A stretch of 64,000 nt of DNA from Microbulbifer elongatus (lineage in GTDB: Bacteria; Pseudomonadota; Gammaproteobacteria; Pseudomonadales; Cellvibrionaceae): NCBI RefSeq assembly GCF_021165935.1, contig NZ_CP088953.1:868001-932000 (forward strand), in the 5' to 3' direction. The notes below the pieces were generated by a model. The model had not been told where the DNA came from. It searched no databases and saw only the letters and a program-made list of their open reading frames with translations. The translations under genes and the position numbers were made by a program. Positions within the stretch are counted from its first letter, which is position 1. Each line of letters opens with the position of its first letter. Below, piece after piece: positions 4,041-49,646 of the stretch.

Positions 4041-4153
4041 GCGGCAGGGTGCCGGGTGCGGCTTTTCAGGACCGCTGTGGACCCGTCCCTGGGCGCTTCG
4101 GCGCAAACATCCTGTTTGCGACGATCCTGAAAAGCCGCCCCCGGCACCCCGCC
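4041..4153 (+). repeat. Long palindromic intergenic repeat, copy A
   Basis: Outer arms near 4047-4072 and 4125-4151 pair through GGGTGCCGGG and GGCTTTTCAGGA. Inside are the core (4079-4093, GGACCCGTCCCTGGG) and an inner hairpin GCAAACatccTGTTTGC. It lies between radC and rpmB, both rightward. The core reads on the + strand, the same sense as the flanking genes. Confidence 0.85.
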
Positions 4154-4412
4154 TTCGCTTCGGCAGATGTGCTCCGTAGCGGCCGTTATTTGGGACTTTT
4201 CCGTCGGCTCTTGTGACTTCGACCCAAAATGGCCGCCCAGACAGCAAAAAAGCTGGTCAAAACTTGCCCCACCAGGGGTGTTCTGGTATAAAACGCCGCT
4301 CTTTGCGGCCGGGCCAGATTCTGTACAGATCCCGCGGTCGCGCTGGATACCGAATTTCGCATTTGCCCCGCACCTGAGCTGAGGGCACAAGAGTTTTAAA
4401 GAGGCCAATCAG

Positions 4413-4649
4413 ATGTCCAAGGTATGTCAGGTAACCGGTAAGCGCCCGGTAACCGGAAACAACGTTTCTCACGCCAAAAACCGCACCAAGCGTCGCTTCG
4501 TGCCGAACCTGCAGTCCCACCGTTTCTGGGTGGAAGCAGAGAAGCGCTTCGTTAAACTGCGTGTTTCTACTAAAGGTATGCGCATTATCGATAAGAAAGG
4601 TATCGATACCGTACTGGCAGAGCTGCGCAAGCGCGGCGAGAAAGTTTAA
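4413..4649 (+). CDS. rpmB: 50S ribosomal protein L28
   Basis: Component of the large ribosomal subunit. The 78-residue length and the start [17 protein letters not shown] are diagnostic, as is the stretch [18 protein letters not shown] near residues 35-52. A ribosome site (AAAGAGG) lies about ten bases before the ATG. It is 32 bases upstream of rpmG in the usual L28-L33 operon. The copy A palindrome lies about 260 bases upstream, so the transcript may arise either from radC or from a promoter within 4160-4400. Confidence 0.98.
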
Positions 4650-4681
4650 TTACTGCTTAATCGCAGATTGGAGACAGAACA

Positions 4682-4837
4682 ATGCGTGACAAGATTCGCC
4701 TGAATTCCAGCGCCGGTACCGGCCACTTCTACACCACTGACAAGAACAAGCGCAACATGCCTGAGAAAATGGAGATCAAAAAATACGATCCCGTTGCTCG
4801 CAAGCACGTTATGTACAAGGAAGGCAAAATCAAGTAA
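4682..4837 (+). CDS. rpmG: 50S ribosomal protein L33
   Basis: Small large-subunit ribosomal protein of 51 residues, starting [19 protein letters not shown] and ending VMYKEGKIK. The zinc-binding CxxC pairs of the other L33 type are absent, so this is the cysteine-free form usual in gammaproteobacteria. It has a GGAGA ribosome site nine bases before the ATG, follows rpmB and ends 21 bases before a strong terminator. Confidence 0.97.
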
Positions 4838-4858
4838 TTGATTGCCTTTCTGGTTCAC

Positions 4859-4886
4859 AAAAAAGCCCGGTTTTCCGGGCTTTTTT
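4859..4886 (+). terminator. Rho-independent terminator after rpmBG
   Basis: Stem AAAAAAGCCCGG, loop TTTT, then CCGGGCTTTTTT, 21 bases after the rpmG stop. The A and T tracts make it usable in both directions. Confidence 0.92.
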
Positions 4887-4921
4887 GTGCCTGATCGAAG
4901 TGACAATCTGCAAATTGCAGG

Positions 4922-5033
4922 TCGTGGTGCCGGTGAAAGTTTGCGGGACCGTCTGCGGCCTGGACGGCCGCAGCCGAGCCCCCATGGATGGGTTTACGGC
5001 GTGTCCCGCAAACTTTCACCGGCACCATGACCG
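4922..5033 (-). repeat. Long palindromic intergenic repeat, copy B
   Basis: Perfect 23-base outer arms, GGTGCCGGTGAAAGTTTGCG plus GGA (4926-4948) against 5004-5026. The inner hairpin is CTGCGGCC/GGCCGCAG (4953-4973) and the core CCCATGGATGGG is at 4981-4992. It lies between the rpmBG terminator and mutM (rightward genes); the core reads on the - strand. Its inner hairpin differs in sequence from all other copies. Confidence 0.85.
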
Positions 5034-5070
5034 CCACTGGGCTTACTAGTGGCTGCCCGGAACCCATTCG

Positions 5071-5886
5071 ATGCCCGAGTTACCAGAAGTAGAAACCACC
5101 AAGCGCGGCCTGGCCCCTCACCTGGAGGGCCGCAAGGTAAAGCTGTGTGAAATCCGCCAGCACAGCCTGCGCTGGCCGGTGGATGCGGATTTTGCGGCGA
5201 AGATTCAGGGTGCCCGAATTCAGCGCCTGGACCGCCGCGCAAAATATCTGCTGGTGGAAACCGATAAAGGCCTCGCCATCTGGCACCTGGGCATGTCCGG
5301 CAGCCTGCGGATCGTCGACGGCAAACTGCCACCGGAAAAACATGACCATATCGACTGGTTGCTCAACAGCGGTCAGCGCCTGCGCTTCCACGACCCCCGC
5401 CGCTTCGGCGCCCTGCTGTGGACAACCGAAGACATTGCCGATCATGAACTCATCGCCCACCTCGGCCCCGAGCCCCTTAGCGATGAATTCCACAGTGACT
5501 ACCTGTACAGCGCGTCCCGCAACCGCAAAGCCCCGGTAAAAACCTTTATCATGGACGGACGTATCGTCGTCGGCGTCGGCAACATCTACGCATCGGAAGC
5601 CCTGTTTATGGCTGGCATCCGCCCGCAAACCCCCGCCGGCAAAATCTCCCGCCCGCGCTACGCGCGACTAGTGGAGGCCATCAAAACTGTCCTCGCCGCT
5701 GCCATCGAGCAGGGTGGCACCACCCTAAAAGACTTCGTCGGTGGCGACGGCAAGCCCGGCTACTTCGCCCAGCAACTCAATGCCTACGGCCGCGCCGGCC
5801 AGCCCTGCCCCCGCTGCCCCGGCACCATTCGCGAACAGATCATCGGCCAGCGCAACACCTTTTTCTGCCCACGCTGTCAGCGCTGA
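5071..5886 (+). CDS. mutM: Formamidopyrimidine-DNA glycosylase
   Basis: Bifunctional glycosylase/AP lyase that removes 8-oxoguanine and formamidopyrimidines. The mature N-terminus PELPEVET with catalytic Pro2 and Glu3 is present, as is the conserved lysine in RRAKYLLVE. The C-terminal zinc finger is C-x2-C-x16-C-x2-C (CPRC near 248, CPRC near 268). At 271 residues the length is normal. It stands 37 bases after the copy B palindrome, which separates it from rpmG, its usual operon neighbour in Pseudomonas-type genomes. Confidence 0.97.
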   Translation: MPELPEVETTKRGLAPHLEGRKVKLCEIRQHSLRWPVDADFAAKIQGARIQRLDRRAKYLLVETDKGLAIWHLGMSGSLRIVDGKLPPEKHDHIDWLLNSGQRLRFHDPRRFGALLWTTEDIADHELIAHLGPEPLSDEFHSDYLYSASRNRKAPVKTFIMDGRIVVGVGNIYASEALFMAGIRPQTPAGKISRPRYARLVEAIKTVLAAAIEQGGTTLKDFVGGDGKPGYFAQQLNAYGRAGQPCPRCPGTIREQIIGQRNTFFCPRCQR

Positions 5887-5947
5887 TTGGGAACAGGTTT
5901 ATTGTCACCCTAAATTTGAGTCTGAAATTCCAACCGGACTCAAACCC

Positions 5948-6106
5948 ATGATTATGATGTTGCCCTTCCTCACGGCACTCATCTCCGCCTGGTTTTCATG
6001 GCGCGGGCGCCGGTGTGCCGCTATGGCCTGGTGGGGGATTACCGCGGCCATCTATGTGGCCTGGTGTGTCTACCATATGACTTCCAGCCTGAATATTTCC
6101 CTGTAG
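5948..6106 (+). CDS. Small membrane protein, DUF5993-like
   Basis: A 52-residue protein starting MIMMLPFLTALISAWFSWRG, with two predicted membrane helices joined by a short basic loop (WRGRRCA) and ending HMTSSLNISL. The size, the mid-protein WRGRR and the C-terminal HxxxxLNIS pattern fit the DUF5993 family, which I recall as a companion of DsbB-like genes; that assignment is from memory. It ends 20 bases before the dsbB-like gene, suggesting co-transcription. No clear ribosome site is visible and its function is unknown. Confidence 0.6.
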   Translation: MIMMLPFLTALISAWFSWRGRRCAAMAWWGITAAIYVAWCVYHMTSSLNISL

Positions 6107-6126
6107 CCTTCCCGGAGACCTGTGCC

Positions 6127-6699
6127 GTGATTCACCACTTGCTTGGTCTGCGTCGCTGGACCGACTGCCTCAATGCCCTTGCCCTGCTGGGGATCAGCGG
6201 CGTGCTCTGGTTTGCCTTCGCTTGGCAAATCGTGCTCCACGAACTGCCCTGCCCTCTCTGTTTGTTACAGCGGGTTGGATTTGCGATGGCGGGTATTGGT
6301 TTGATGCTGAACGTCTGTTTTGGCAGTCGGCCGGCGCATTACGGCATTGCGATTCTGTCGGCCCTGGCCGGAATGGTGTCGTCCGCGCGCCAGGTCCTGC
6401 TGCACATTGCGCCGGGCGATCCGGGTTTCGGCTCACCCTTTCTCGGTCTGCATTTTTATACCTGGGCGCTGGTGGCGTTTTTTGTATTGGGACTGTTTCT
6501 GGGTGGACTGTTGCTGCTGGATCAGATGAAAGTGAAAGAGGCGGCGGATGTGTCGCGTACCCCGGGCTGGTTGGGCAAACTGGCGGTGTACAGTTTTCTC
6601 GCCATCTTGCTGGTTACCCTCCTCTCCACTCTGCTGGAGTGTGGCTTTGGTCCTTGCCCGGACGACCCCACCGAGTATCTCTGGCTGCCGGGTAAATAG
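6127..6699 (+). CDS. DsbB-like disulfide bond formation protein, divergent type
   Basis: Inner-membrane quinone-linked thiol oxidase family. The 190 residues give four to five membrane helices. The CPLC motif (C42, C45) after the first helix matches the DsbB active site next to the quinone. The second cysteine pair of classical DsbB, in the loop between helices 3 and 4, is missing. Two other cysteines (C172 and C177, ECGFGPC) lie after the last helix and could serve instead, which is inference. Start is GTG at 6127 with GGAGA ten bases upstream. A classical DsbB is encoded separately at 23830-24330. It converges with gdx, one base apart. Confidence 0.8.
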   Translation: MIHHLLGLRRWTDCLNALALLGISGVLWFAFAWQIVLHELPCPLCLLQRVGFAMAGIGLMLNVCFGSRPAHYGIAILSALAGMVSSARQVLLHIAPGDPGFGSPFLGLHFYTWALVAFFVLGLFLGGLLLLDQMKVKEAADVSRTPGWLGKLAVYSFLAILLVTLLSTLLECGFGPCPDDPTEYLWLPGK

Positions 6700-6700
6700 G

Positions 6701-7027
6701 TCAGACTGCAGAGGTGAGTTTCAGTCCGGCAATCCCGGCAACAATCAATCCGATACACAACAGCCGCGGCAAGGCGGTGGACTCTGCAAACAGTACGATG
6801 CCGAGAATGGCTGTACCCACGGCACCGATACCGGTCCACACCGCGTAGCCGGTACCGACGGGAATGGTTTTCAGTGCCTGGGCGAGGAAATAAAAACTGG
6901 CGATCATGGTCACGATTGTGAGGACACTGGGCAGCGGTTTAGTGAAGCCCTGGGTGTATTTGAGGCCAATGGCCCAGCCCACTTCCAGCAGTCCGGCAAT
7001 CAATAACAATAACCAGGGATTGGCCAT
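6701..7027 (-). CDS. gdx: Small multidrug resistance family exporter, guanidinium (Gdx/SugE) type
   Basis: Four-helix dimeric antiporter of 108 residues. The essential membrane glutamate is E15 in [13 protein letters not shown]. The GLKYTxGF stretch and [16 protein letters not shown] match the SugE/Gdx subfamily, which exports guanidinium in exchange for protons, rather than EmrE-type drug pumps. It starts 29 bases after the ggt stop and is probably read from the ggt promoter. That gap is too short to hold the guanidine riboswitch that precedes many gdx genes. Confidence 0.88.
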
Positions 7028-7056
7028 TATCCTTTACCTCGATGGTGGTGTTTGTA

Positions 7057-8829
7057 TCAATTTCCTACCGCGCTGCCTTCCCGCCGGGTATCGGCGCCGC
7101 CGTAGAGCTTGCCGTCTTTGATCGCGATGCCGTGAATGCCGCTGTTCAATTCTTTGCGCACGACCTTGTGGCCCATGGCTTCGAGTTTTTTCAGTTCGGT
7201 ATCCGACAGTGTCTCCGGCTCCACTTCCACCCGATAACCGATCGCGCCGATGTTACCGGCGTGGATGGCTTCTGCAATGGGCATTCCTTTGCTCAAATGA
7301 TAAAGAATGGTACGCGCGGTGTAATCGATAATCCGCGAACCGCCCGGGGAGCCGACGATCAGCCGCAGGCTACCGTCCTTGTTGAACACGATGGTGGGTG
7401 ACATGGATGAGCGTGGGCGCTTGCCCGGCTGCACGCGGTTGGCGACCAGCTCCTTGGCGGCATTGCGCGGCACAAAGGAAAAGTCGGTGAGCTGATTATT
7501 GAGCAGGAAGCCCTTGACCAGCAGGCGCGAGCCGAAGCCGGTTTCAATGCTGGTGGTCATGCTCACTGCATTGCCGTACTGATCGACGATGGACAGGTGG
7601 CTGGTGTTGGGCATTTCCGGGGATTCGGCTTCAATACGCTTGCCAGACAGGGCACCTGGCTCGCCGGAACGCGCCGGCAGAGCTTGCTTCAGGTTGATCA
7701 GTTTCGCACGCTGGGCAAGGTAGTGCGGGGCCACCAGTTCGTCCGTGGGTACGCTTACAAAATCGCTGTCACCCAGGTAGGTATTGCGGTCGGCGAAGGC
7801 CAGTTCCGACGCTTCCACAAACAGGTGCGTCAATTCGGCGCTGCCCACTCCCAGTGGCTGCAGGGGAATATGCTGCAGCATGCCGAGAATCGCCCCTACG
7901 GTGGTGCCGCCGGATGACGGTGCCGCTGCGCCACACACTTCAAATTCAAAAAAGGTACTGCACACCGGGTTGCGCACCTTGGCCTGGTAGTCGGCCATGT
8001 CCTGCAGGGTCATCACTCCGGGGTTGATCGGGTCATTGCGCACCGCGTCGACGATGGCCTCGGCAATTTCACCCTGATAAAAGGGTCGGGCGCCCTTGTC
8101 GGCCAATAATTTGAGCGTGGCGGCATACTCGGGGTTCTTCAGAATACGGCCCACCGGCCGTGGTTTGCCGTCTTCGCCAAACAGGTATTCGCGGATCGCG
8201 GGGCGCGCGGCGACCCGTGGCAGCCGGTCTGCCAGTTGATACAGGCGGGGGGAAATGGCGAAGCCGTTTTCCGCGAGTTCGACGGCGGGGTGGAACAGGT
8301 CCTTCCATGGCAGTCTCCCATCCCGTTTGTGCGCCAGCGCCAGCATGCGCATCACGCCCGGGACGCCCACGGAATAACCGCCGATCACGGCGTCGAGAAA
8401 ACCGCGGGGTTTGCCGTCGCGGATAAAGTAGTTTTCATCCACTGCCATGGGGGCGGTTTCTCGGCCGTCGTAGGAGTACAGCTTCTTGTCATCGGCGCGG
8501 TAACTCAGCATAAAGGCGCCGCCGCCGATCCCGGAGGACTGGGGTTCCACCAGCCCGAGCACCAGCTGCGCGGCAATGGCGGCATCCACCGCGGTGCCGC
8601 CATTGGCGAGTATCTGCGCCGCGGCGTCGGAGGCATGGGGGTTGGCGGTGACCGCCATAGAGGTGTCCGCCGTGGCGGCTTTGATTTCCGTGCGTCCAGT
8701 GGCAATTTCCGGCTGGACTTCCGTGGGCGCCTGCATTGCGGGCGCAGCCAGGCAGGCCGAGGTGATCAGCAATCCGGACAGGGTGGTGGAACAGGCAAGA
8801 GAGACAAAGCGTTTCACTGGGCGATCCAA
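7057..8829 (-). CDS. ggt: Gamma-glutamyltransferase
   Basis: Periplasmic N-terminal nucleophile hydrolase that cleaves gamma-glutamyl bonds of glutathione. It is made as a proenzyme and cleaves itself before the nucleophilic threonine, here near T409 in PNTSHLSIVD, giving large and small subunits. Other family signatures are GIGGGAFML near residue 105, PSSGGTTVG near 305 and GSPGGSRII near 500. A hydrophobic signal peptide occupies about residues 7-28. The 590-residue length is typical. It lies downstream of coaD in the same direction and upstream of gdx. Confidence 0.95.
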   Translation of the reverse strand: MDRPVKRFVSLACSTTLSGLLITSACLAAPAMQAPTEVQPEIATGRTEIKAATADTSMAVTANPHASDAAAQILANGGTAVDAAIAAQLVLGLVEPQSSGIGGGAFMLSYRADDKKLYSYDGRETAPMAVDENYFIRDGKPRGFLDAVIGGYSVGVPGVMRMLALAHKRDGRLPWKDLFHPAVELAENGFAISPRLYQLADRLPRVAARPAIREYLFGEDGKPRPVGRILKNPEYAATLKLLADKGARPFYQGEIAEAIVDAVRNDPINPGVMTLQDMADYQAKVRNPVCSTFFEFEVCGAAAPSSGGTTVGAILGMLQHIPLQPLGVGSAELTHLFVEASELAFADRNTYLGDSDFVSVPTDELVAPHYLAQRAKLINLKQALPARSGEPGALSGKRIEAESPEMPNTSHLSIVDQYGNAVSMTTSIETGFGSRLLVKGFLLNNQLTDFSFVPRNAAKELVANRVQPGKRPRSSMSPTIVFNKDGSLRLIVGSPGGSRIIDYTARTILYHLSKGMPIAEAIHAGNIGAIGYRVEVEPETLSDTELKKLEAMGHKVVRKELNSGIHGIAIKDGKLYGGADTRREGSAVGN

Positions 8830-8874
8830 AGTGATTGGAATCGCCCGAGTGTATCAGAATGGTGGCGCCGGGCC

Positions 8875-9414
<540 letters not shown>

Positions 9415-9462
9415 TCAAAAAGTCCGTGGAAAAAGCGTCAAACTCGAGTGAATGTTCGGGAT

Positions 9463-10047
9463 TCACGCCCTAAATAGCCGCATGCAGACCTGTCCGGCCT
9501 GCTTTTCCTTTTCCAGCTGCCAGCTGGCGGGCACGGTGATTTGAATATTACGGGGGGATTCCACGTAGATCAGGGTGTCTTCGCCGACACAGCCGGCTTC
9601 CATCAGGCCCGCCAGTGCGGTTGTCCACAGGTCATTGGCAAAGGGTGGGTCGACAAAGATCACATCAAAGGGGGCTGCGGGCTGGCTCAGAAACACTTCC
9701 GCGGGGCAGTTGTGCACCTGGGCGCCCTCGGCTTCCAATACATCCAGCTGCTGCCGGAGTATCTGTGCGGCGCCCCGATTCAGCTCCACGAAGTCGACCT
9801 GTGCAGCGCCACGGCTCAGGGCTTCCAGGCCCAGGGCGCCGGAGCCGGCAAACAGGTCCAGGCAGCGGGCCCCGGGCAGGTGAAACTGCAGCCAGTTGAA
9901 CAGCGTCTCGCGCAACCGGTCGCCGGTGGGACGCAACCCTTCAATGGGGGCGAAGGCGACTTTACGCCCGCGCCAGCGGCCGCCGATGATGCGCAATTGG
10001 GATACGGGGGGCGAGGCCGGGGAACTGGGGCGGCGGTTTCTGGGCAT
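9463..10047 (-). CDS. rsmD: 16S rRNA (guanine(966)-N(2))-methyltransferase
   Basis: Methylates G966 of 16S rRNA in the small subunit. The SAM-binding motif is in DLFAGSGALGLEALSRGA near residues 80-97, and the N6/N2 amino-methyltransferase motif is VDPPF near residue 130. The N-terminal start region with RIIGGRWRGRK is typical. The gene is divergent from ftsY, an arrangement shared with other gammaproteobacteria. Confidence 0.95.
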   Translation of the reverse strand: MPRNRRPSSPASPPVSQLRIIGGRWRGRKVAFAPIEGLRPTGDRLRETLFNWLQFHLPGARCLDLFAGSGALGLEALSRGAAQVDFVELNRGAAQILRQQLDVLEAEGAQVHNCPAEVFLSQPAAPFDVIFVDPPFANDLWTTALAGLMEAGCVGEDTLIYVESPRNIQITVPASWQLEKEKQAGQVCMRLFRA

Positions 10048-10195
10048 TGGCGGTCCGGCAAAAGGGTTACGGCGGCAAATAAAGGCGGGCCACTGTGTGC
10101 TAAACAGTCAGCGGTGCTAAGATTAGCGCCTTTCCAGGGCCGGCTGCCAGCCGGTATTTGCCAGTCACCCTTTTCCTTCGAAGAATCCACACCTG

Positions 10196-11485
10196 ATGAT
10201 TTTTGATTTTCTGCGCAAAAAGAAGCCCGAGGACCAGACCGCCGAGGAGTCCTCCCCCTCGACGGAGGCCCAGAACCCGCTTGTAGAGACGGCGGACGAG
10301 GTCGAGTTTGAGATTCCGGAGAACCTGAAGGCTGACCCGTCGTCGGAGACCGCGACAGCAGAAATCCCGCCAGCGGCGGACGCGGGGGGGACCCTTTCTG
10401 CGGAGGAAGCACCGGAATCCGGGTTCGACCCGGTGGCCGAGGTTCAGCCGCCGCAGGCTCCTGAAGCGCCCGCTGATATTGAGGCGCCGGCCGCTGCTGC
10501 CGAGACGGAAGCCCCGGCGCCAGCCACGCCGGCGAAAGAGCAGGAGAAGCCAAAGAAAGAAGGTTTCTTTGCTCGCATCCGTCGCGGTCTGTCCCGCACC
10601 AGCAGTCAGTTTGCCGAGGGTATGGGCAATCTGTTCCTGGGTGCCAAGGAGATCGATGAAGATCTGATGGAGGAGCTGGAGACCCAGCTGCTGATGGCGG
10701 ATGTGGGCCTGGATGCGACCACGGAGATTATCGATCGCCTGACCGAGCGGGTTTCCCGCCGCGAGCTGTCCAATGGTGAGGCGTTGTACAAGGCGTTGCA
10801 GGAGGAGCTGGCGGGCTTGCTCAATAAAGTGGAGGCGCCGCTGGCCATTGATCAGGCGAAGCAGCCGTTTGTGATTCTGGTGGTGGGCGTGAATGGTGTG
10901 GGCAAGACCACGACCATTGGCAAGCTGGCGCATCGCTATCTGAACGAGGGCAAGTCGGTGATGTTGGCGGCGGGGGATACGTTCCGCGCGGCGGCGGTGG
11001 AGCAGCTGCAGGTGTGGGGAAGCCGTCACAATGTGCCGGTGGTGGCCCAGCATACGGGGGCCGATAGCGCCTCTGTCATCTTTGATGCGATACAGTCTGC
11101 CCAGTCCCGGGGTGTGGATGTGGTGATTGCGGATACGGCGGGCCGCCTGCACAACAAGTCCAATCTGATGGAGGAGTTGTCGAAGGTGCGCCGGGTGATG
11201 GGCAAGCTGGACAGTTCTGCTCCCCATGAGGTGTTGCTGGTGCTGGATGCGGGCACCGGGCAGAACGCGTTGTCCCAGGCGGAGACCTTCAAGGATTCGG
11301 CGGGGGTTTCCGGTCTGGTGCTGACGAAGCTCGATGGTACGGCCAAGGGCGGGGTGATTTTCGCGCTGGCGCAGAAGCTGGGGATTCCGGTACGCTTTAT
11401 TGGCGTCGGGGAGCAGGCAGAGGATTTGCAGCCGTTTGTAGCCAAGGACTTTGTGGCGGCGCTGTTTAATCGCGCTCAGGGGTGA
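10196..11485 (+). CDS. ftsY: Signal recognition particle receptor FtsY
   Basis: Membrane-associated GTPase that receives ribosome-SRP complexes. An acidic, Ala/Pro/Glu-rich A domain covers about residues 10-120, the helical N domain about 125-215, and the G domain follows with P-loop GVNGVGKTTT (near 231), DTAGR and TKLDGTAKGG. Length is 429 residues. It is the first gene of the ftsY-ftsE-ftsX cell-division cluster, but here the copy C palindrome lies between ftsY and ftsE, leaving a 200-base gap. Confidence 0.97.
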   Translation: MIFDFLRKKKPEDQTAEESSPSTEAQNPLVETADEVEFEIPENLKADPSSETATAEIPPAADAGGTLSAEEAPESGFDPVAEVQPPQAPEAPADIEAPAAAAETEAPAPATPAKEQEKPKKEGFFARIRRGLSRTSSQFAEGMGNLFLGAKEIDEDLMEELETQLLMADVGLDATTEIIDRLTERVSRRELSNGEALYKALQEELAGLLNKVEAPLAIDQAKQPFVILVVGVNGVGKTTTIGKLAHRYLNEGKSVMLAAGDTFRAAAVEQLQVWGSRHNVPVVAQHTGADSASVIFDAIQSAQSRGVDVVIADTAGRLHNKSNLMEELSKVRRVMGKLDSSAPHEVLLVLDAGTGQNALSQAETFKDSAGVSGLVLTKLDGTAKGGVIFALAQKLGIPVRFIGVGEQAEDLQPFVAKDFVAALFNRAQG

Positions 11486-11504
11486 TAACTCCGAGATAAC
11501 TTTG

Positions 11505-11625
11505 GTGGCGGCGCTGCTACCGGGTACGGCCTTGTGAGACACGCCGTGAACCCATCCCTGGGGGCTCTTCCGCGAGGTCCCTCTCGCGGAAGGTCTCACA
11601 AGGCCGTACCCGGTATCAGCGCCTT
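11505..11625 (+). repeat. Long palindromic intergenic repeat, copy C
   Basis: Outer arms 11511-11540 and 11593-11622 pair almost completely (CCGGGTACGGCCTTGTGAGA strand against its complement). The core GTGAACCCATCCCTGGG is at 11546-11562 and the inner hairpin CTTCCGCGAG/CTCGCGGAAG at about 11567-11592. It starts about 20 bases after the ftsY stop. The core reads with the genes. Confidence 0.88.
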
Positions 11626-11685
11626 CGCATTGGGCTAATGTAGTTCTTTTCGCGCCCTCGAAACTAAAACAACAAAAACGCGCTC

Positions 11686-13673: not shown

Positions 13674-14528
<855 letters not shown>

Positions 14529-14580: not shown

Positions 14581-14636
14581 GTATGGGGGCTTTGTTCGGG
14601 GTTAGTGGGATTCGCTTTGAAGCTGGTCTGGTGGCG

Positions 14637-14747
14637 GTGAGGCACCGGGTATCTGTTTTCGGAACCACTGTGAACCCATCCCTGGGCGTTGCGGCGCAAA
14701 CTTCCTGTTTGCGACGCTTCCGAAAACAGATCCCCGGTACCTCCCCT
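14637..14747 (+). repeat. Long palindromic intergenic repeat, copy D
   Basis: Outer arms contain CACCGGGTATCTGTTTTCGG on the left and CCGAAAACAGATCCCCGGTA on the right. The core GTGAACCCATCCCTGGGCG is at 14670-14688 and the inner hairpin is GCGCAAACttccTGTTTGCG. It lies between the rpoH terminator and the DUF423 gene, both genes rightward, with the core reading with them. Confidence 0.87.
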
Positions 14748-14794
14748 TCAATTTTGACTGCTGTTCTTCGTAAGCCAGAACGAAAGGAATAACG

Positions 14795-15172: not shown

Positions 15173-15213
15173 TCGCCAACAGAAGTTGGTAAGAACTCAG
15201 AAATACGACTTGA

Positions 15214-15327
15214 AGGCTAAGCACCGGGTATAAGTTTTCAGAAGCGTCGGCGACAGGACGTCGCCGCCGCAACGCCCATGGATGGGTTCACAGTGGTTCT
15301 GAAAACTTATACCCGGTGCTTGGCCGC
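15214..15327 (-). repeat. Long palindromic intergenic repeat, copy E
   Basis: Outer arms AAGCACCGGGTATAAGTTTT (from 15219) and AAAACTTATACCCGGTGCTT (to 15322) are exact complements. The inner hairpin is GTCGGCGAC/GTCGCCG and the core CCCATGGATGGGTTCAC is at 15275-15291. Located between the DUF423 gene and trmB, both rightward; the core reads on the - strand. Confidence 0.88.
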
Positions 15328-15389
15328 CACAGAAAGAGCTACGTAGCACCCAAGAACAGTGCTCCGGGCCAAGAGGTAACAGAGCCAAG

Positions 15390-19610: not shown

Positions 19611-19631
19611 ATCCCCGCTAGGCGTGCCTGC

Positions 19632-24965: not shown

Positions 24966-25002
24966 TTCAGGTCCCCTGGCTTACGATCTTAATTGGATTG
25001 AG

Positions 25003-25192
25003 TGGCGGCACTGCTGCCGGGTACGGCCTTGCGAGACACGAGCTAGGCGCCGCCCCGATGAACCCGTCCATGGGGGCTCTTCCACGAGGTCCCTCTCGCG
25101 GACAAAGCATGAGCTTTGGACGCCGAAGGCGCCCGCAGGGTGAGCAAAGCGAATCAACGTCTCGCAAGGCCGTACCCGGCATCAGCACCTGC
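25003..25192 (+). repeat. Long palindromic intergenic repeat, copy F (expanded)
   Basis: Outer arms 25008-25037 and 25159-25188 share CCGGGTACGGCCTTGCGAGA. The core GATGAACCCGTCCATGGGGG is at 25058-25077. The right half holds extra sequence (about 25101-25157) not seen in other copies, containing CAAAGCatgaGCTTTG and GGCGCC-type mini-hairpins. Located between gshA and acpH, both leftward; the core reads on the + strand, against the genes. Confidence 0.85.
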
Positions 25193-25201
25193 GCGGCGAC
25201 T

Positions 25202-27380: not shown

Positions 27381-27511
27381 CATGCGGGGGGACAACTTTG
27401 CTCAGACATGGAAGGCAGTTTAGCGGCGGTGGGAGGGAGGCTCAAGGATTGGGATGTAGGCCGTGTTGGTTCACACGTTGAGAAATCAGTTCGTGATAGT
27501 GAGCTAGGGGC

Positions 27512-27630
27512 GAAGGTGGCGACGCCGGGTACAGCCTTGAGAGACCTTCCGCGAGAGGGACCTCGCGGAAGAGCCCCCACGGATGGGTTCACGGCGTGTC
27601 TCACAAGGCTGTACCCGGTTTCGCCACCGC
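27512..27630 (-). repeat. Long palindromic intergenic repeat, copy G
   Basis: Outer arms 27515-27545 and 27598-27628 share CCGGGTACAGCCTTG and its complement. The inner hairpin is CTTCCGCGAG/CTCGCGGAAG and the core CCCACGGATGGGTTCACGGC is at 27576-27595. Located between maeB and the hypothetical gene, both leftward; the core reads on the - strand, with the genes. Confidence 0.87.
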
Positions 27631-27664
27631 CACCGGGTACGTTCGAGGGAGGTTGCGAGCTGGG

Positions 27665-39009: not shown

Positions 39010-39046
39010 TTGCAAACCAGCGACGAAGTAATTCACCACGAATAGA

Positions 39047-39160
39047 AGGCGGGGTGCCGGGTAGGGGTTTTTGAAAGCGTCGGCGACAGGGACGTCGCCG
39101 ACGCAGCGTACAGGGATGTATTCACAGCGGTTTCAAAAACCCCTACCCGGTACCCCGCCG
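39047..39160 (-). repeat. Long palindromic intergenic repeat, copy H
   Basis: Outer arms 39048-39076 and 39131-39159 are exact apart from one base: GGTGCCGGGTAGGGGTTTTT and its complement. The inner hairpin GCGTCGGCGAC/GTCGCCGACGC lies at about 39077-39103, and a degenerate core ACAGGGATGTATTCACAGC at 39110-39128. Located inside the hslV-hslU pair; the core reads on the - strand. Confidence 0.88.
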
Positions 39161-39216
39161 CCACCGCGCTTCAATAAAACGAGCGCTGGGACAAACGAAA
39201 GAATTCGAGAAATATC

Positions 39217-40530: not shown

Positions 40531-40539
40531 CGTACAACA

Positions 40540-40580: not shown

Positions 40581-40593
40581 TTCCGGACACACA

Positions 40594-40971
40594 ATGCCCC
40601 CACCGCAAAAAATCCGTCTGCAAAAAGCCGACAAGACACTCATCCTCCTCTACCCGGATGCAGAATTCGAACTCCCCGCCGAATATCTCCGGGTTTACTC
40701 TCCCAGTGCCGAAGTGCGCGGTCACGGCGCCGGCGAAGGCAATCTGGTGGCGGGCAAGCTGCATGTGGGAATCGAGCGGGTCGCCGCCGCCGGCCGTTAT
40801 GCGCTACAGATTTTTTTCGACGACGGTCACGACAGCGGCATCTACACCTGGGCGTATCTGCGGGAGTTGTGCGAAACCCGGGAGCAAAAGTGGCAGGCCT
40901 ATCTCGAGCGCCTGGAAAACGCGGGCCAGGGTCGCGATCCCGACGAAAGCCCGGTCAAGCTGATTGGCTGA
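40594..40971 (+). CDS. DUF971 (gamma-butyrobetaine hydroxylase-like N-terminal) domain protein
   Basis: Small conserved protein of 125 residues. The domain is recognised by LILLYPDAEFELPAEYLRVY near residue 18 and RYALQIFFDDGHDSGIYTW near 68, the latter ending in the conserved D-G-H-x-S-G-I-Y-x-W. Its role in bacteria is unsettled; the domain is zinc-binding in eukaryotic hydroxylases and has been linked to iron-sulfur metabolism. The gene lies after hslU as in Pseudomonas. Confidence 0.9.
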   Translation: MPPPQKIRLQKADKTLILLYPDAEFELPAEYLRVYSPSAEVRGHGAGEGNLVAGKLHVGIERVAAAGRYALQIFFDDGHDSGIYTWAYLRELCETREQKWQAYLERLENAGQGRDPDESPVKLIG

Positions 40972-41074
40972 ACCCGACGTAAATCTGACGCATATTTCCG
41001 GTATCCTCCCCCAAAACTTCTTCCGGCCACGCCGGAAGCCGATCACCATCAAAATTGCCTCTGGGGGAATACTC

Positions 41075-42679: not shown

Positions 42680-43242
42680 GGGTAGTGTTTTGGTGGGCAG
42701 GAGTGGACAAAGAATGGATGGAATTTGGCGCATGCTTCAGTGCCATTGGTTATCGGTTTAGTCTCCTGCCTTTTCCCACGCGTCGCTATTGGAGTAGTCA
42801 GGTCGCGTAGCGAAGTCAGTATCCGGGCTGCTTCAAAAAAGCAGAAGCGCGCCATACCGTTCTCTTGCATGCCAGCAATCGCTCACATCAGCTAGCAGTA
42901 TCTCCTTCATATTGTGAAATGACTGGTTTTTTAGTTTTTCCATTATCTCATTTAGTGGGTTTTTGTCCTGACGCATGGGTCAGAAAAATGACCGATTGAT
43001 AGGGTAAAAGCCCCAAGGGATGCCTGTCCCAATTAAGGCTATTTTGTTGTTACATTCATTCTTTTTTTTAAAGATTTTGGGTGTGAGTAGCCTGATTCGA
43101 GAATGGGCGGGGCATGTTTGTTATTTATTGTTCGCTCGTCAAAAAATACATATGAGGGGTTAGGGAGGTTAGTCGTCAAATTTTTGTAGCGAAGTCTTTC
43201 GCTACAAAATACTGACAAGAGCCTAATTGGGGGGCTAACCAA
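42680..43242. other. AT-rich intergenic region upstream of the TonB receptor
   Basis: 563 bases without a credible gene, markedly more AT-rich than the rest of the window. It contains an inverted repeat CTGACGCATGGGTCAG (42968-42983) that could be an operator, and a perfect stem-loop at 43182-43209. Long T tracts occur near 42930 and 43065. The composition suggests recently gained DNA. Confidence 0.5.
43182..43209 (+). promoter_or_regulatory. Perfect stem-loop in the receptor leader
   Basis: TTTTGTAGCGAA, loop GTCT, TTCGCTACAAAA: a 12-base perfect stem ending 19 bases before the ribosome site GGGGGG and 34 bases before the start. Likely a leader RNA element or operator; which one cannot be told from sequence. 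Confidence 0.55.
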
Positions 43243-46200
43243 TTGAATAAATTAAAAAAAATGTTCGAGAGCGCAGGGACTCCGCTCAAGGTAAGCGTGT
43301 CCACAGCTGTTCTGGCAGCAGTACTTTCTCCTATTACTTTCGCACAAGAAGATGACACCTCTGTTACTGAGACGAACGTAGTCGCCGAGCAGCAGTCCGC
43401 TGTTCCCGTTCCTCAGGGAGTGGAAGACGATTCGGGGGTAGAAGAGGTCGTCGTTACCGGCTCTCGTCTGAAACGAGACACATTTTCAAGCATTGCACCT
43501 TTACAGATAATTAACGCCGAGGGGGCACGAGAGGCTGGTGCCATTGATACGTCCACGATCCTGCAGTCCAGTGGCGCAGCGACCGGTCAACAAATTGATC
43601 TGACCTTCTCCGGTTACGTTTTGGATAATGGGCCTGGTGCTTCAACCGTAGATCTGCGCGGTCTTGGTGCTGGCCGTACCCTAGTGTTGCTGAATGGCCG
43701 TCGAATGGCGCCTGCGGGCGTAGAAGGTGCCCCTGTCGCTGCAGACTTGAATCTGATTCCAGCCTCCCTCGTTCAACAATATGACCTTCTTTTAGATGGC
43801 GCCTCATCGATTTATGGTTCTGATGCTGTAGCGGGCGTGGTAAACGTTATCTTGAAGAAAGATTTTGATGGCGTTGACTTTGAGGTGTTTGGCACCAATC
43901 CCCAGCAGCCTGGTGGTGGGGAAAACACATTAAGCTTGAGTTGGGGTCACAACTTCGATCGTGGTTTTGTTGGTATGGGGGTCGAGCATTATGAGATGGA
44001 TGCTGTGACCCTGGCGGACCGAGAGTGGACCGCTGGCTGTGCCCGTGATATCGAAGTCGGAACTGATGGAAATATTTATACGGGCAACGCGTACTACCAA
44101 GAAATTTATGGCATGGACTTTGAGGGCTGCGGATTCGGTTCTCTTGCTGGTCGGATCTCTGTGCCAGAAGCGGGAAGTATCTATTACACCCCTGGTAGTT
44201 CAAACGGTGGCTGGAATGGTTTCACAGAATCCAGTGCTTTCGCGCTGAGCGGACTTGATACGAATGGTGATGGTGTTCCGGATATCAACTTCCACGATTA
44301 CGACCTCAATGGTAAAGAGCAGTTTGCACACCTGATTCCCGAGCAGGAGCGAACCAGTTTTATGGCCTTCGGTGAATATACATTCGAGGGGGACATGAAT
44401 CTGACTCCATTTTTTGAAGTCAGCTATGCAAAGCGTGAGAATTTCATTAATACAGGTGCCAGCCAGCTGTTCCCGGACGTTCCCGCCGACAACCCCTTTA
44501 ACCCTTGTAACCCAGACGGCGTGCGTGGCGTAGATTGTGGTGAAGCCTATGACCAACTATTGACGAATCCGGGCTTTGAGGCTCAGTTTGCCGCGTTTTA
44601 TGGGTTGACGCCTACCCAGTTCCGCGACCAAGGTATCGTCGATCTGTTTGCTGGCCCTATTGGTGCGCAGGAAACAACACCGATTGTCTCGGTTCTAGGT
44701 GACCGCAACATCAACCGTGTCGAAGTTGCACAATCACGTTTCGTAACTGGGATGCGCGGTGATCTACCAATGATGAATATTGGTAGTTTATCTGATTGGT
44801 CCTTTGAGCTCTCTGGCTCCATTACCAAGTCAGACGGGGAGTCCAGTCGTATTGGTATCCGGGGGGACCGGATGTACCAATCTCTGGAAACGACTATCGA
44901 GGATCCCGATAACCCGGGTACATATATTTGCGAGCCACTTCCCGGTGAGTCAACCTGTGTACCTATCGATATGTTTGCGGGTTCCCTTTATGAGGGTGTG
45001 ATCGGAGACTTCGCGACACAGGCCGAGCGCGATTACCTGTTTGATAGTCGCGACTTTGATACGTCCTATTACCAGACGATCTTTTCTGCGTATGCCAGCG
45101 GCACCGTGGCTACCCTGCCTGCGGGGGACGTCATTGTGGGGGTAGGAGTAGAGTTGCGTGATGATCGCATCAAGTCTGTACCAGATGATGTTGCGCGTGA
45201 TGGCTTGTTTATCCACTACTTTGCAGATGGTGGTGCAACGGGCAACAAGACTACAAAAGAGGCCTACGGTGAAATTGAATTGCCGTTACTCGCCGGTAAA
45301 TTCTTGGCTGAAGAGCTGACTACTAACCTGTCCGCGCGATATACCAAAGATGAATTTTATGGTGGTGCCTGGACAAACGCAGCAAAGGTTGCATATCGTC
45401 CGGTCGAATCCCTGTTGCTTCGTTCTACTTATGGGACCTCATATCGCGCACCGAACCTGCGTGAAAATTTCCTGCAGAACCAAACCGGTTTTCAGACTGT
45501 GTCTGACCCCTGTTTGATTCCTGACAGTGCATTGGATGACCTTACTGGTGGTTATAATGCCGACTTGGACACTCGTTCACCCGAGGTTCTGGCTAACTGT
45601 GCTGCCAACGGCGTGGACCCAACTGTCACAGAGAACGGTGGTTTCAACTCTTATAGTGTGGAAGTGGCTCGTGGTGGCAGTCTTGGTCTGAAAGAAGAGA
45701 CTTCAGATTCCTTCACGGTAGGATTTTCTTTCGAGCAACCTTTTTCGAAAGCTTTGATCTGACTCTCGGTATGACGTACTACGATATCGAAATTGAAAAT
45801 TCGATTATCGAACCGTCTCCTCAGTTCCTGATCAACGATTGCTACAGCAATCCAAATGGCAATAGTGCCTTCTGCTCTCAGTTGGAGCGCGGTGACGATG
45901 GTCTTCTCGACAAAGTCGACGCGGCGTTTGTAAACCGAGACAACGAGGTCGCACGCGGGTTCGATTACAATGTCGCCTATACCCAGCCCGTGACAGTTTT
46001 CGGGGCACCGATTGAATTGAGTGCGAACCTTACATTCAATCGTGTGCTGGAACGTACTCTTACGTATCTGGACGATGAAGGTAATCCCGATGTGGACGTA
46101 TATCAGGGCACCTTTGGTTTCCCGAAATGGCAAGGGCGTGGTGAATTCCGCGTAGATTATGATAAATATCGTTTCACCTGGACAACACAATACCTGGACT

Positions 46201-46532
46201 CAGTAGAGCAAGCGGATGAATTTGTCGATGAGTTCAGCGACATCTATGACACCAATGAAACTGGTTTCACCTCTGATGCTTGTATTGGTGCCGAAAATGG
46301 CGGGGTTGATTGCCGTGATGTAGGCTTTGCGGACGACTATATACTGCATAGTGCCTCTCTGTACTACTATGCCGATACTTGGACCGCTGGTCTCGGTGTG
46401 CGGAATGTGTTTAATGAGGCACCACCGGAAGTGGACGGCGACGAAATCCTATCCGTCAACAACACCCCGATTGGTTATGGTTACAATATTCAAGGTCGGA
46501 CAGTGTTCCTGAACCTTCAGAAAAACTTCTGA
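43243..46532 (+). pseudogene. TonB-dependent receptor, split by a one-base frameshift
   Basis: Outer-membrane importer of about 1096 residues if repaired. The signal peptide covers about residues 1-35 (ending ITFAQ), then the plug with EEVVVTGSRLKRDTFSS, DLRGLGAGRTLVLLNGRRM and LDGASSIYGSDAVAGVVNV. The barrel ends at the classic C-terminal aromatic (VFLNLQKNF). The first frame stops at 45762; the second resumes from about 45745 to 46532. One extra T in the T5 tract at 45741-45745 restores FEQPFFESFDLTLGMTYYD. So either a real mutation, a sequencing error or a slippery site. TTG start with GGGGGG nine bases upstream. The substrate is unknown; the S9 peptidase downstream suggests peptides. Confidence 0.88.
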
Positions 46533-46546
46533 TATTGCCAAGGTTC

Positions 46547-46577
46547 AAAAAGCCCGCATTTATGCGGGCTTTTTTTT
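46547..46577 (+). terminator. Rho-independent terminator after the receptor
   Basis: AAAAAGCCCGCA, loop TTTA, TGCGGGCTTTTTTTT, 14 bases after the receptor stop. It separates receptor and peptidase transcripts, at least in part. Confidence 0.93.
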
Positions 46578-46619
46578 CAAAAAATGACGATTTTCTAGTT
46601 CTATTTACAGGGTGCCGTA

Positions 46620-48572
46620 ATGGAAATACTGAAAAGGCTGGCCGTTTCTCTATTGTTCTTATGTAGCTTGGAATCGGTGTCCGCGGCTGTCGAGCCCTAT
46701 CCGTTGGATTACTGGGCTCTGCGCGATGTGATCAGTAATGTCGAGGTTTCGCCAGACGGGAAGCACGTTGCTTTGCTGAAAATACCAACCAAAGATGGCG
46801 ATCCGATTATTGAGGTGTATCCGTCAGATGACCTGGATGCCGAGCCCTACCGGGTCAACTCACATCCAATGGAGATTCAAGGATTTTTCTGGTTGAGCAA
46901 TGACGTGATTGGGATGAATCTTCGTCAGAAAGTGCGCGATCGTATCGAAGGGTTCAATGAAGGGGTATATGAATATCTTCTCGCTTCGGTAGATATCAAA
47001 CGAAAAAAAATGAAAAAGTACGATCAGTTGGGTGCTGAACTGGAGCATGTGCTCCCGAACAACGATCGTCGCATTATCTTTTCCTACATTCCGGGAGGCG
47101 ATAAAAGTCGTTTGAACAAGGCATTTCGTCCTCGCACTTACTATGAGATGGATCTGAAGTCCGGTGCCAAGAAATTGATCTTGCGTGGCAAGCTGGATAT
47201 GGGGCAGGTAGAGTTTGATATCGATGGTAATCCGTGGCTGGCACGGGGTTTCGATGTTGGCAAGGGCGAGTACGTTTGGTACCAGCGGGTTACTAATTCT
47301 GGAAAGTGGCAGGAATTCTATCGACTCAGCGAGGATAGTTTTGAAACCTTCGAAGTGGAGGGTTTTGATGACAGGCAACCTCACATTTTTTATGTACGTG
47401 CAAACCAGGGTGATGACAAAATTGGACTTTGGGAATACGACGTGCGCAAAGGAGACTTCGGTGAGCTGATCTATCGTCGCAGTGATGTGGATGTTGCTGC
47501 TGTCCGTTTTCATAGCAACGAATGGAAGAATAGAGATTCTGTAGTTGGTGTTGTTTACGCTAAAGACAACATCAAGGTCGAATATTTCGACGAGCTGGAA
47601 ATGGCAACTACGCGTCAGCTGCAAGGAATTATTCCGGAGTCTCACTATCTTCGCATCAATAGCCGCAGTCGAGACGGCGCGAGTCTAACGATCTACAACG
47701 TGGGTCCGCGTGACCCAGGCACCTACTACCTTCTGCATGCGGGCAAGCTCACCAAGGTCGGAAGTCGGCAACCTCTGCTCGAGCCGGAAAATTTGGCCGA
47801 AGTGCGGTATATCGAGTATCAGGCGCGCGATGGCCGGACTATCCCCGCCTATCTGACGATTCCTAATGGCAAGCCACCATTTCCTGCGATAGTAATGCCT
47901 CACGGTGGCCCCTTTGTTTCCGAAGTGGTGGTGTACGATGAGTGGGCCCAGATGTTGGCCAACAACGGCTACATTGTGCTGCAGCCCCAGTACCGTGGAT
48001 CCAAAGGATTTGGTCTGGAGCACTACACCTCGGCCTTCGTTAACGGTGGCCAGGGCGGGTACAAAATGCAGGACGATAAGGACGATGGCATGCTCTATCT
48101 GGTAGATCAGGGCTGGGCGGAAAAAGATCGTCTCGCGATGTTCGGTTGGTCGTATGGAGGCTATGCGGCCCTTGTGGCAGCTGCGCGAGATGATCAGATA
48201 TACCAGTGTGTGATAGCGGGTGCTGCTGTTTCCGACAACCAGATGCAGGTGAACTATTATCGTGATCGCCTGCGCGGCGCGAGCAAGATCGAGCAGCTTG
48301 GCATGTGGGATGACAGTGTATCTCCAATCGAGCAGGCGGCGAATGTAAATGTGCCCGTCTTGCTGATCCACGGGAGTGTGGACCAGCGTGTACCGCCAGA
48401 GCATGCGGAGCGATATCGCAAGGCGCTCGACAAGAATGGTCGGGTATACAAGTACGTGGAACTGGATGGCGCCGATCATTTCAGTAACACGCTGTTCTAC
48501 GAGCATCAAAAGACACTGTACGAATCAATGATCTCGTATCTCGCTTCGGATTGTGGCGAGGGGGGGCTTTAG
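46620..48572 (+). CDS. S9 family peptidase (acyl-aminoacyl-peptidase/DPP type), secreted
   Basis: Serine peptidase with beta-propeller and alpha/beta-hydrolase domains, 650 residues. Signal peptide about 1-23 (ending SVSAA). The catalytic serine is S511 in GWSYGGYA, the aspartate lies in GSVDQRVPPEHAERY near 594 and the histidine in GADHFSN near 626. The propeller starts with VEVSPDGKHVALL. S9 peptidases encoded beside TonB receptors are common in marine gammaproteobacteria and fit peptide scavenging, which is inference here. It lies between a terminator upstream and ubiE, and shares the lower GC of the receptor gene. Confidence 0.9.
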   Translation: MEILKRLAVSLLFLCSLESVSAAVEPYPLDYWALRDVISNVEVSPDGKHVALLKIPTKDGDPIIEVYPSDDLDAEPYRVNSHPMEIQGFFWLSNDVIGMNLRQKVRDRIEGFNEGVYEYLLASVDIKRKKMKKYDQLGAELEHVLPNNDRRIIFSYIPGGDKSRLNKAFRPRTYYEMDLKSGAKKLILRGKLDMGQVEFDIDGNPWLARGFDVGKGEYVWYQRVTNSGKWQEFYRLSEDSFETFEVEGFDDRQPHIFYVRANQGDDKIGLWEYDVRKGDFGELIYRRSDVDVAAVRFHSNEWKNRDSVVGVVYAKDNIKVEYFDELEMATTRQLQGIIPESHYLRINSRSRDGASLTIYNVGPRDPGTYYLLHAGKLTKVGSRQPLLEPENLAEVRYIEYQARDGRTIPAYLTIPNGKPPFPAIVMPHGGPFVSEVVVYDEWAQMLANNGYIVLQPQYRGSKGFGLEHYTSAFVNGGQGGYKMQDDKDDGMLYLVDQGWAEKDRLAMFGWSYGGYAALVAAARDDQIYQCVIAGAAVSDNQMQVNYYRDRLRGASKIEQLGMWDDSVSPIEQAANVNVPVLLIHGSVDQRVPPEHAERYRKALDKNGRVYKYVELDGADHFSNTLFYEHQKTLYESMISYLASDCGEGGL

Positions 48573-48754
48573 TCAGGTCGCCGTACCCCGCATCTCCTGT
48601 CCGCCCCATTCCATCGCCTCTCGCGTTGGAGTGGGGCTAACAGTCTGGCACCTCTCCCTGCATGCTATCCAGCCTCTAACTCTGGGCCTGCCCCTCTCCC
48701 TCGTCCTCTGTTCCCATGTACAATACCGCCTGAATCAGGTACAGCAGGCACACA

Positions 48755-49504
48755 ATGACGGAACGCAAAACGACCCATTTCGGCTACCAGCAGGTGCCGG
48801 TGGAAGAGAAGGCCGGACGGGTGGCGGATGTTTTTCACTCGGTGGCGGCGCGCTACGATGTGATGAATGACCTGATGTCCGGTGGTATTCACCGCCTGTG
48901 GAAGCGTTTTACCATCGAGCTGTCCGCGGCGCGTCCGGGGCAGGCGATCCTGGATATTGCCGGTGGCACCGGGGATCTGACGGCGCGTTTTTCCCGCATT
49001 GTAGGCCCTACCGGCAAGGTGGTGTTGGCGGATATCAATGCGTCGATGCTGAAGGTGGGCCGAGATCGCCTGCTGGACCGCGGGATTGCGGGCAATGTGG
49101 AGACGGTGCAGGCGGATGCCCAGTATCTGCCCTTCCCGGACAATACCTTTGACTGTATTACCATTGCCTTCGGCCTGCGCAATGTGACGGATAAGGATCT
49201 GGCGTTGCGCTCGATGTTGCGGGTGTTGAGGCCCGGTGGCCGGCTGCTGGTGTTGGAGTTTTCCAAGCCGGAGTCGAAACTGCTGGAGAAGGTGTACGAT
49301 CAGTATTCTTTCCGCCTGTTACCGTTTATGGGCAAGCTGGTGGCGGACGATGCCGAAAGCTACCGCTATCTCGCTGAGAGTATCCGTATGCACCCGGATC
49401 AGGAAACCCTGAAAGGTATGATGGGCGAGGCCGGGTTTGTGGACTGCGAGTTTCACAATATGACCGGTGGTATTGTGGCTCTGCATAAAGGCATTAAGCC
49501 TTAG
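48755..49504 (+). CDS. ubiE: Ubiquinone/menaquinone biosynthesis C-methyltransferase UbiE
   Basis: SAM-dependent methyltransferase of ubiquinone (and menaquinone) synthesis. Family motifs are [19 protein letters not shown], the SAM site [15 protein letters not shown] near residue 65 and [20 protein letters not shown] near 145. Length is 249. It is the first gene of ubiE-ubiJ-ubiB, but the copy I palindrome lies between ubiE and ubiJ. Confidence 0.97.
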
Positions 49505-49523
49505 TTTTTCAGTCCGTGGCGGC

Positions 49524-49646
49524 CCGGGTGGCGGTGTCTCCTTGTGAGACACGAGCTAGGCGCTCCCCCGGTAACCCATCCATGGGGGCTCTTCCGCGAG
49601 GTCCCTCTCGCGGAAGGTCTCACAAGGAGACACCGCCACCCGCGCC
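49524..49646 (+). repeat. Long palindromic intergenic repeat, copy I
   Basis: Outer arms 49525-49550 and 49618-49643 are perfect: CGGGTGGCGGTGTCTCCTTG onward and its complement. The core GGTAACCCATCCATGGGGGC is at 49570-49589, and the inner hairpin CTTCCGCGAGgtccCTCGCGGAAG type at 49590-49617. Inside the ubiE-ubiJ-ubiB operon; the core reads with the genes. Confidence 0.9.

Follow-up and report, generated by a model that had tools for sequence, protein, structure and literature searches.

The question raised by a 64,000-nucleotide stretch of a Microbulbifer genome (positions 868001-932000 of a single 4,196,952-base contig, referred to here as the window) is what the nine long palindromic elements in its intergenic gaps are, and which of their strands carries the structure that has been kept. 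The initial annotation had described nine copies sharing one palindromic architecture, and this description holds: the nine are the longest inverted repeats in the window, with arms of 27-40 nt that are 83-97% complementary, and RNA folding of eight of them (the copy at 25003 being excluded) on the GGA strand defined below yields z-scores between -7.9 and -11.0, each copy being more stable than all 200 of its shuffles. The reading that we favor, at a probability of about 45%, is that they are copies of an old, vertically kept element of the YPAL/RU-2 (Ysr224) kind, one strand of which is a predicted two-site CsrA-binding module. The computational observations on which this is built are homology to YPAL and Ysr224, retention at the same sites over long times, concerted change of the two arms, conservation of the core, and wobble pairing specific to one strand.

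On the other strand from the core sequence singled out in the initial annotation (the GGA strand, to which all feature strands given here refer), the element consists of a long outer stem capped by a pair of small hairpins, both with an (A)NGGA loop. In most copies the core hairpin reads CCCA-NGGA-TGGG or TACA-NGGA-TGTA; its closing C-G is a Watson-Crick pair in 148 of the 149 copies, the N of ANGGA is variable, and in the next nominal pair an A stands opposite U (135 copies) or C (11), such that the core loop behaves as a hexaloop, ANGGAY. The inner hairpin has a stem that varies widely among copies and orthologues, and a loop that is mostly AGGA or ANGGA and rarely CTGGA. A scan detects both GGA hairpins, in any form, in 146 of the 158 copies counted in this genome, and the exact CANGGANG motif is present twice in 59 of them, once in 96, and missing from three; among 103 copies from non-Microbulbifer loci, for which the search pattern had partly selected the core though not the inner hairpin, the corresponding numbers are 81, 20, and two. 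The commonest form of the GGA loop across genera is C[ANGGAY]G. The CsrA/RsmE consensus is (A/U)CANGGANG(U/A) and the consensus from systematic evolution of ligands by exponential enrichment (SELEX) with the Escherichia coli protein is RUACARGGAUGU, as given in the accessible part of PMC6692469. The GGA motif of the element equals the former, and the two ANGGA-loop hairpins closed by C-G expected of a CsrA-binding RNA are present, deviations being confined to one hairpin, mostly the inner one. The copy between hslV and hslU (39041..39166, + strand; GGA strand sense to the genes) illustrates this, with an inner hairpin at 39077..39104 (+; loop CAGGGACG) and a core hairpin at 39108..39121 (+; GTACAGGGATGT) that matches the SELEX consensus exactly. 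From these sequences we predict that the GGA loops bind CsrA.

That the outer stems differ in sequence between copies and nonetheless stay paired, as had been proposed, is confirmed by a covariation score of 0.566 across the 150 aligned copies from this genome, compared with 0.190 for shuffled and 0.077-0.112 for slid controls. The distribution of imperfect pairs is asymmetric with respect to strand, a signal that appeared once the strand was set by the element rather than by the gene. Over the outer stem, alignment columns 8-17, there are 169 G.U oppositions on the GGA strand and 5 A.C; copy by copy over columns 8-37, G.U predominates in 107, A.C in 6, and 37 are tied. The bias is seen over the same columns in the orthologue sets from hslV-hslU, where the GGA strand is sense (41:0), and ubiE-ubiJ, where it is antisense (25:5), and at other loci over columns 19-50 (78 G.U and 23 A.C, summed by hand). 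Columns 4-6 were left out of the test as fixed end motifs rather than pairs. Counted instead in transcript sense, G.U and A.C number 229 and 192 in tandem gaps and 69 and 82 in convergent gaps, which gives no clear signal. A wobble bias on one strand points to folding of a single strand, either RNA or single-stranded DNA (ssDNA), because none would be predicted by a cruciform that is symmetric between strands or by arm correction alone. The asymmetry singles out the GGA strand in a single-stranded fold, and the earlier proposal that the structure matters in either sense gives way to one favored strand, opposite to the core as first described. We also note that three adjacent columns of the outer stem recurrently depart from Watson-Crick pairing in the GGA sense (A.G in 60 copies at column 15, T.G in 50 at column 16, and G.T in 69 at column 17), which suggests a recognised internal feature.

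The elements appear to be old residents of their sites. Thirty of the 48 genomes of the genus were inspected for each of two orthologous gaps; at hslV-hslU the element is present in 19, cut by a contig end in one, a remnant in one, and absent from nine, and at ubiE-ubiJ it is present in 20 (degenerate in L277), cut by a contig end in one, a remnant in one, and absent from eight. Across five relatives, 38 of the 45 sites orthologous to those of the window are occupied, and all matches at E<=1e-8 within their syntenic stretches sit at the nine sites, such that there are no new insertion sites in these stretches. Several losses leave internal deletions, and no clean vacant site is available in which to recognise a target site duplication, the vacant sites seen being deletions or too diverged. 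Between species the inner arms differ at 18-36% of positions, yet only 0-5% of their pairs are non-Watson-Crick; independent decay would give similar figures for the two. Divergence at hslV-hslU and ubiE-ubiJ respectively is 0.25 and 0.29 at third codon positions, 0.28 and 0.36 in the inner arm, and 0.12 and 0.13 in the 27-column core, a comparison that covers two loci with 17 and 20 sequences (two of the 19 hslV loci were left out of the codon comparison, and one second match in L250 out of the hslV set). The arm sequences thus change roughly as fast as third codon positions, with pairing and core retained, the core changing less than half as fast. The paired changes at hslV-hslU, counted pairwise, are mostly from one Watson-Crick pair to another and comprise 516 transitions and 391 transversions (907 in total); with transversions common and wobble rare in the inner stem, the perfection of the inner arms may also reflect hairpin-templated correction. 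This locus in addition keeps its own variant of the core, TACA/TGTA in most species and CCCA/TGGG in L238.

Further copies were expected elsewhere in the genome from a covariance-model search, and they were found in large numbers. A model of the nine copies gave 149 matches, with 150 of 1339 candidates scored, and the census is accordingly a lower bound; with reverse-strand duplicates of the same copy removed, there are at least 158 separate copies, 150 of them aligned and eight from weaker hits (the weakest at 27.9 bits). Model matches span 124-142 nt in 143 of the 158, with flanks weakly conserved to about -24 and +27, and 155 lie outside called genes, the other three overlapping one. Copies occupy 95 tandem gaps (78 with a single copy and 17 with two), 27 convergent gaps (18 and nine), and six divergent gaps (five and one). 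Against a background of 161:16:46 tandem, convergent, and divergent gaps of at least 60 bp in the five syntenic relatives, element-bearing gaps included, divergent gaps are avoided (6 of 128 versus 46 of 223, p 3e-5) and convergent gaps over-represented (27 of 128 versus 16 of 223, p 3e-4). Within the window all nine copies do lie between co-directional genes according to our own gene calls, and the convergent or divergent gaps, of which 13 are called rather than the roughly fifteen first estimated, hold none of them; this tandem-only pattern is a small-sample effect, and the suggestion that the element is tolerated only in tandem gaps fails genome-wide. In tandem gaps the median distance from the upstream stop codon to the copy is 31-45 nt.

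The genome contains csrA, as do all 21 good-quality genomes that bear the element, compared with 108 of 123 overall (p 0.05). Were the GGA strand transcribed, its two loops would be bound by one CsrA/RsmA dimer; each copy would then act on its host transcript as a portable module with two CsrA-binding sites, and the many copies summed could compete for CsrA. The near-perfect pairing of the inner arms would be kept in part through correction of one arm with the other as hairpin template. A broader version of this model, in which a mobile family found throughout the Gammaproteobacteria is a portable CsrA/Rsm cassette that wires many housekeeping operons and buffers free CsrA, with Ysr224/YPAL doing likewise in Yersinia, we put forward only tentatively.

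Several observations weigh against the CsrA model, and the main difficulty is that half of the copies lie antisense to their operon and are almost as intact as the others. Among single copies in tandem gaps the GGA strand is sense in 42 and antisense in 36 (p 0.57), which is random orientation with no preference for placing the GGA strand in the transcript, and for this reason CsrA binding stays a prediction. The hairpins are intact in 49 of 53 antisense and 57 of 59 sense copies (p 0.42), and the wobble bias over columns 8-37 is present in both classes (60:2 antisense and 65:6 sense). Non-Watson-Crick pairs make up 24 of 1010 in the inner stems of antisense copies versus 18 of 1087 in sense copies (p 0.28), and 16 of 493 versus 6 of 433 at the orthologous window loci (p 0.08), a trend that favors sense copies and is not significant. 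Random orientation, intact antisense copies, and wobble in both classes are not predicted by a function in operon mRNA. The motif itself is incomplete in many copies, the full form being present in only about 40% of the inner hairpins of this genome, 40 of which have a G-C closing pair (GAGGGACC) and 38 an AGGA loop without the N. The wobble signal is also uneven: the inner stem (columns 18-37) has only 21 G.U versus 12 A.C, columns 4-6 run in reverse with 2 and 235, and totals over the whole table, which include the end and hairpin columns, are 194 and 270 for copies from this genome and 100 and 98 for other loci. Moreover, the copies are related by descent, such that these counts are not independent, and ssDNA tolerates G.T better than A.C, such that wobble does not prove RNA. 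Finally, a csrA match is absent from three of five lower-quality element-bearing genomes (G076, G137, and G168; 67-88% complete).

There are three other models to consider, two of which were anticipated in the initial annotation as RNA processing within operons or a MITE-like element; of that proposal the conserved structure, the multiplicity of copies, the covariation, and the MITE-like nature of the repeat stand, while the restriction to tandem gaps, the equivalence of the two senses, and the supposed novelty do not. One is that the copies are miniature inverted-repeat transposable elements (MITEs) with no cellular function, relics of transposition whose arms are matched by template-switching during replication and whose core is homogenised by ectopic conversion among some 150 copies. 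Correction of quasipalindromes is a known process, in which template-switching within a hairpin copies one arm from the other. The mostly Watson-Crick-to-Watson-Crick changes of the inner arms with their common transversions, the occurrence of all four pair types at columns 25-28, identical inner-hairpin sequences at different loci that suggest exchange, losses by internal deletion, and the random orientation are all in keeping with it. Arm correction acts on both strands, however, and leaves no strand bias of the kind seen in the outer stem, and neither a core that at two fixed sites evolves less than half as fast as third codon positions nor the persistence of a locus-specific core variant at hslV-hslU fits a functionless relic well; we therefore regard this explanation as unlikely, while giving it serious weight.

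A second model retains the strand asymmetry and moves it to DNA, with an extruded hairpin of the GGA strand recognised by a transposase or another ssDNA-binding protein, much as REP sites are recognised by RAYT and attC sites by the integron integrase. It accommodates an asymmetry that is independent of gene orientation, the recurrent non-Watson-Crick positions at columns 15-17 of the outer stem, and the arrangement of double copies, which are mostly head to head with their right ends inward (22 of 27, p 0.0015), as well as the ftsY-ftsE site, at which two of the five relatives have the whole element reversed. We consider it improbable given that the genome has only two Y1 transposase genes, with no core motif in their 3.3-kb loci, that the syntenic stretches of the five relatives contain no new insertion sites, that the GGA strand shows no bias relative to the replication fork (81:68, p 0.33), and that the one copy used as query has no match in plasmid and phage collections. 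The remaining model, which was that of the initial annotation, is a strand-symmetric element for mRNA processing, mRNA stabilisation, or terminator-like activity at gene ends. Placement just past stop codons, the avoidance of divergent gaps, and the excess in convergent gaps suit it, and YPAL and ERIC have effects on transcripts in yersiniae according to the portion of PMC2229807 that is available. It leaves the conserved GGA loops, the conserved core, and the one-strand wobble bias unexplained, and we think it quite improbable.

The remaining eight copies in the window are distributed as follows. The GGA strand is antisense to the genes in the radC-rpmB gap (4036..4160, - strand), in the ftsY-ftsE gap (11503..11630, -), 3' of rpoH (14629..14753, -), between a malic-enzyme gene and a small open reading frame that are both on the - strand (27508..27635, +), and in the ubiE-ubiJ gap (49514..49653, -). 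It is sense in the rpmG-mutM gap (4913..5039, +), 5' of trmB (15208..15332, +), and between gshA and an ACP-phosphodiesterase-like gene, both on the - strand (25000..25196, -). Together with the hslV-hslU copy, these strands and gene calls bear out the earlier count of cores that run with the flanking genes in five copies and against them in four. At the malic-enzyme site four of five relatives are without an intact element, and the copy at 25000..25196 has extra internal sequence that its orthologue in G024 does not contain. An additional GAGCTAGGCGC-containing segment adjoins the core in some copies, including those at 25000-25196 and 49514-49653. The ftsY-ftsE copy is in the opposite orientation in G028 and G060, and this reversal of the whole element in two of five relatives (orthologous loci L303 and L311) reflects either inversion or independent insertion.

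Some features of the copies concern the unit as a whole. About 18 nt past the CCTTC end (the right flank in core sense) there is a weak ACTTCGTAAGC-like motif at fixed distance, examples of which are found on the left side of window 39041-39166 and in L196, L177, and L185; ACTTCG occurs at two adjacent positions of the right flank in 35 of 158 copies. With this motif and the weak extension on the left, the unit may be some 175 bp long. The head-to-head pairs (e.g. L177, L185, and L171) are 43-86 bp apart, and several of their spacers contain an inverted ACTTCGT...ACGAAGT-like repeat of their own. Moving away from dnaA, where the origin is assumed to be, copies become steadily fewer toward the far side of the chromosome (48, 35, 26, 22, 13, and 5 of 149 in six bins of near-equal distance).

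If the GGA loops do bind CsrA, a class of repeats that has been treated as MITEs or as single small RNAs (sRNAs) would be a distributed layer of the Csr/Rsm network, and a genome with over a hundred copies would have CsrA sites in the hundreds, scattered through operon gaps and gene ends and maintained by vertical descent. Even without CsrA binding, the orthologous sites provide a clean natural record of a palindrome that drifts at about the third-codon rate and yet remains complementary, one that is useful for separating selection at the RNA level from hairpin-templated repair.

How the element relates to known repeats can be considered at the level of both sequence and organization. At least 116 stretches from named genome records contain the exact core sequence, nearly all from Gammaproteobacteria (Halomonas, Stenotrophomonas, Xanthomonas, Marinobacter, Shewanella, Alteromonas, Rheinheimera, and Saccharospirillum among the genera), together with a few metagenome-assembled genomes named only as Proteobacteria or Pseudomonadota, and there are matches at E<=1e-6 in 26 of 143 gammaproteobacterial genera sampled. 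The initial annotation knew of no described family with this core, and this has to be revised, as Ysr224 and YPAL/RU-2 share the core and both hairpins. An Rfam family with the same core, one of the findings that the initial annotation had named as refuting it, thus exists, although its scores here are below its gathering cut-off of 70 bits: a search of the window at gathering thresholds finds nothing, and with E-value thresholds the independently built Ysr224 model (RF02770) matches the hslV-hslU copy at 33.6 bits (E 7e-4), overlapping it on the other strand at 39074-39184. The best of eight loci from other genera, L045 in Stenotrophomonas, reaches 44.7 bits (E 5e-7). Across our genome there are 60 Ysr224 matches at E<=1 (the best at 34.6 bits, and all below the cut-off), 56 of which overlap counted copies; the other four may be further copies. 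What Ysr224 has in common with the copies is the core and the inner hairpin, on the core strand, such that the strand annotated in Rfam is not the one favored by wobble. RF02770 was built as a Yersinia sRNA and appears to describe a dispersed repeat. Ysr224 is multi-copy in Y. ruckeri (accessible part of PMC12112432), and its standing among the most prevalent annotated sRNAs, as given in an excerpt of PMC9029176, may be a matter of repeat counts.

Several other intergenic palindromes and GGA-loop RNAs invite comparison. ERIC (IRU, RU-1) is likewise an intergenic palindrome, 127 bp long and found in enterobacteria and Vibrionaceae (in the parts seen of PMC2759123 and PMC10969869), and differs in ending in TA (PMC2229807, in the part cited above), which our copies do not. 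No nhmmer match on either strand links the 127-bp ERIC consensus to the copy profile. REP/BIME sequences and REPINs are similar to the copies in being intergenic palindromes that sometimes form inverted pairs. REPs differ in being 20-40 bp long with GTAG/CGTC tags (available text of PMC3733652). A RAYT/Y1 transposase was considered as the mobiliser and rejected, with no core motif beside either Y1 gene in the 3.3-kb loci fetched. One Y1-transposase match lies about 325 bases from a match to the C-terminal part of DnaA (G000:C1:1943139-1944056), each in a 338-residue open frame, and the two are possibly one fused protein. CsrB/RsmZ-type RNAs and CsrA-bound mRNA leaders, which present ANGGA loops on short hairpins at more than one site per molecule, are similar in this respect. 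The copies differ from them in being a dispersed repeat in either orientation, neither an sRNA gene nor a 5' untranslated region, and in that CsrA binding is predicted. The Rfam family TwoAYGGAY has no match up to E 10 in the window or up to E 5 in the eight other loci.

A further relationship is to YPAL/RU-2. Against a hidden Markov model of the 150 copies from this genome it scores 32.2 bits over the central 59 nt, compared with 4.3 bits for the best of 2000 dinucleotide shuffles, and the printed RU-2 sequence runs CCGCGCCAAGGATGGCGCGG then GAGCCTACATGGATGTATTTACGGCG (PMC2759123, in the portion available). Like the copies, YPAL/RU-2 is intergenic, lies close downstream of stop codons near gene ends, and has a long imperfect stem with two hairpins and a linker; the YPAL unit is about 168 bp, with internal inverted repeats and ends other than TA, and its structure in Y. 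pestis is conserved, with an RNAz value of 1.00 according to the accessible part of PMC2267715. The profile alignment stops short of the outer arms, however, and YPAL is described as recently mobile, with target duplications of 3-26 bp (PMC2229807, same portion), whereas the Microbulbifer copies look old, with no insertion event seen. Searches with the core as a sequence string returned nothing related among the titles listed, those for such a repeat returned a single MITE review to the point, itself seen in part, and, among the first papers listed for YPAL or Ysr224 together with CsrA or RsmA, the one with Ysr224 does not link the two in its available text. The kind of repeat is already known, as the YPAL/Ysr224 of Yersinia, and as far as searches of the open-access literature show, neither loops of the CsrA type, nor wobble specific to one strand, nor arms that change in concert at fixed sites have been described for this family.

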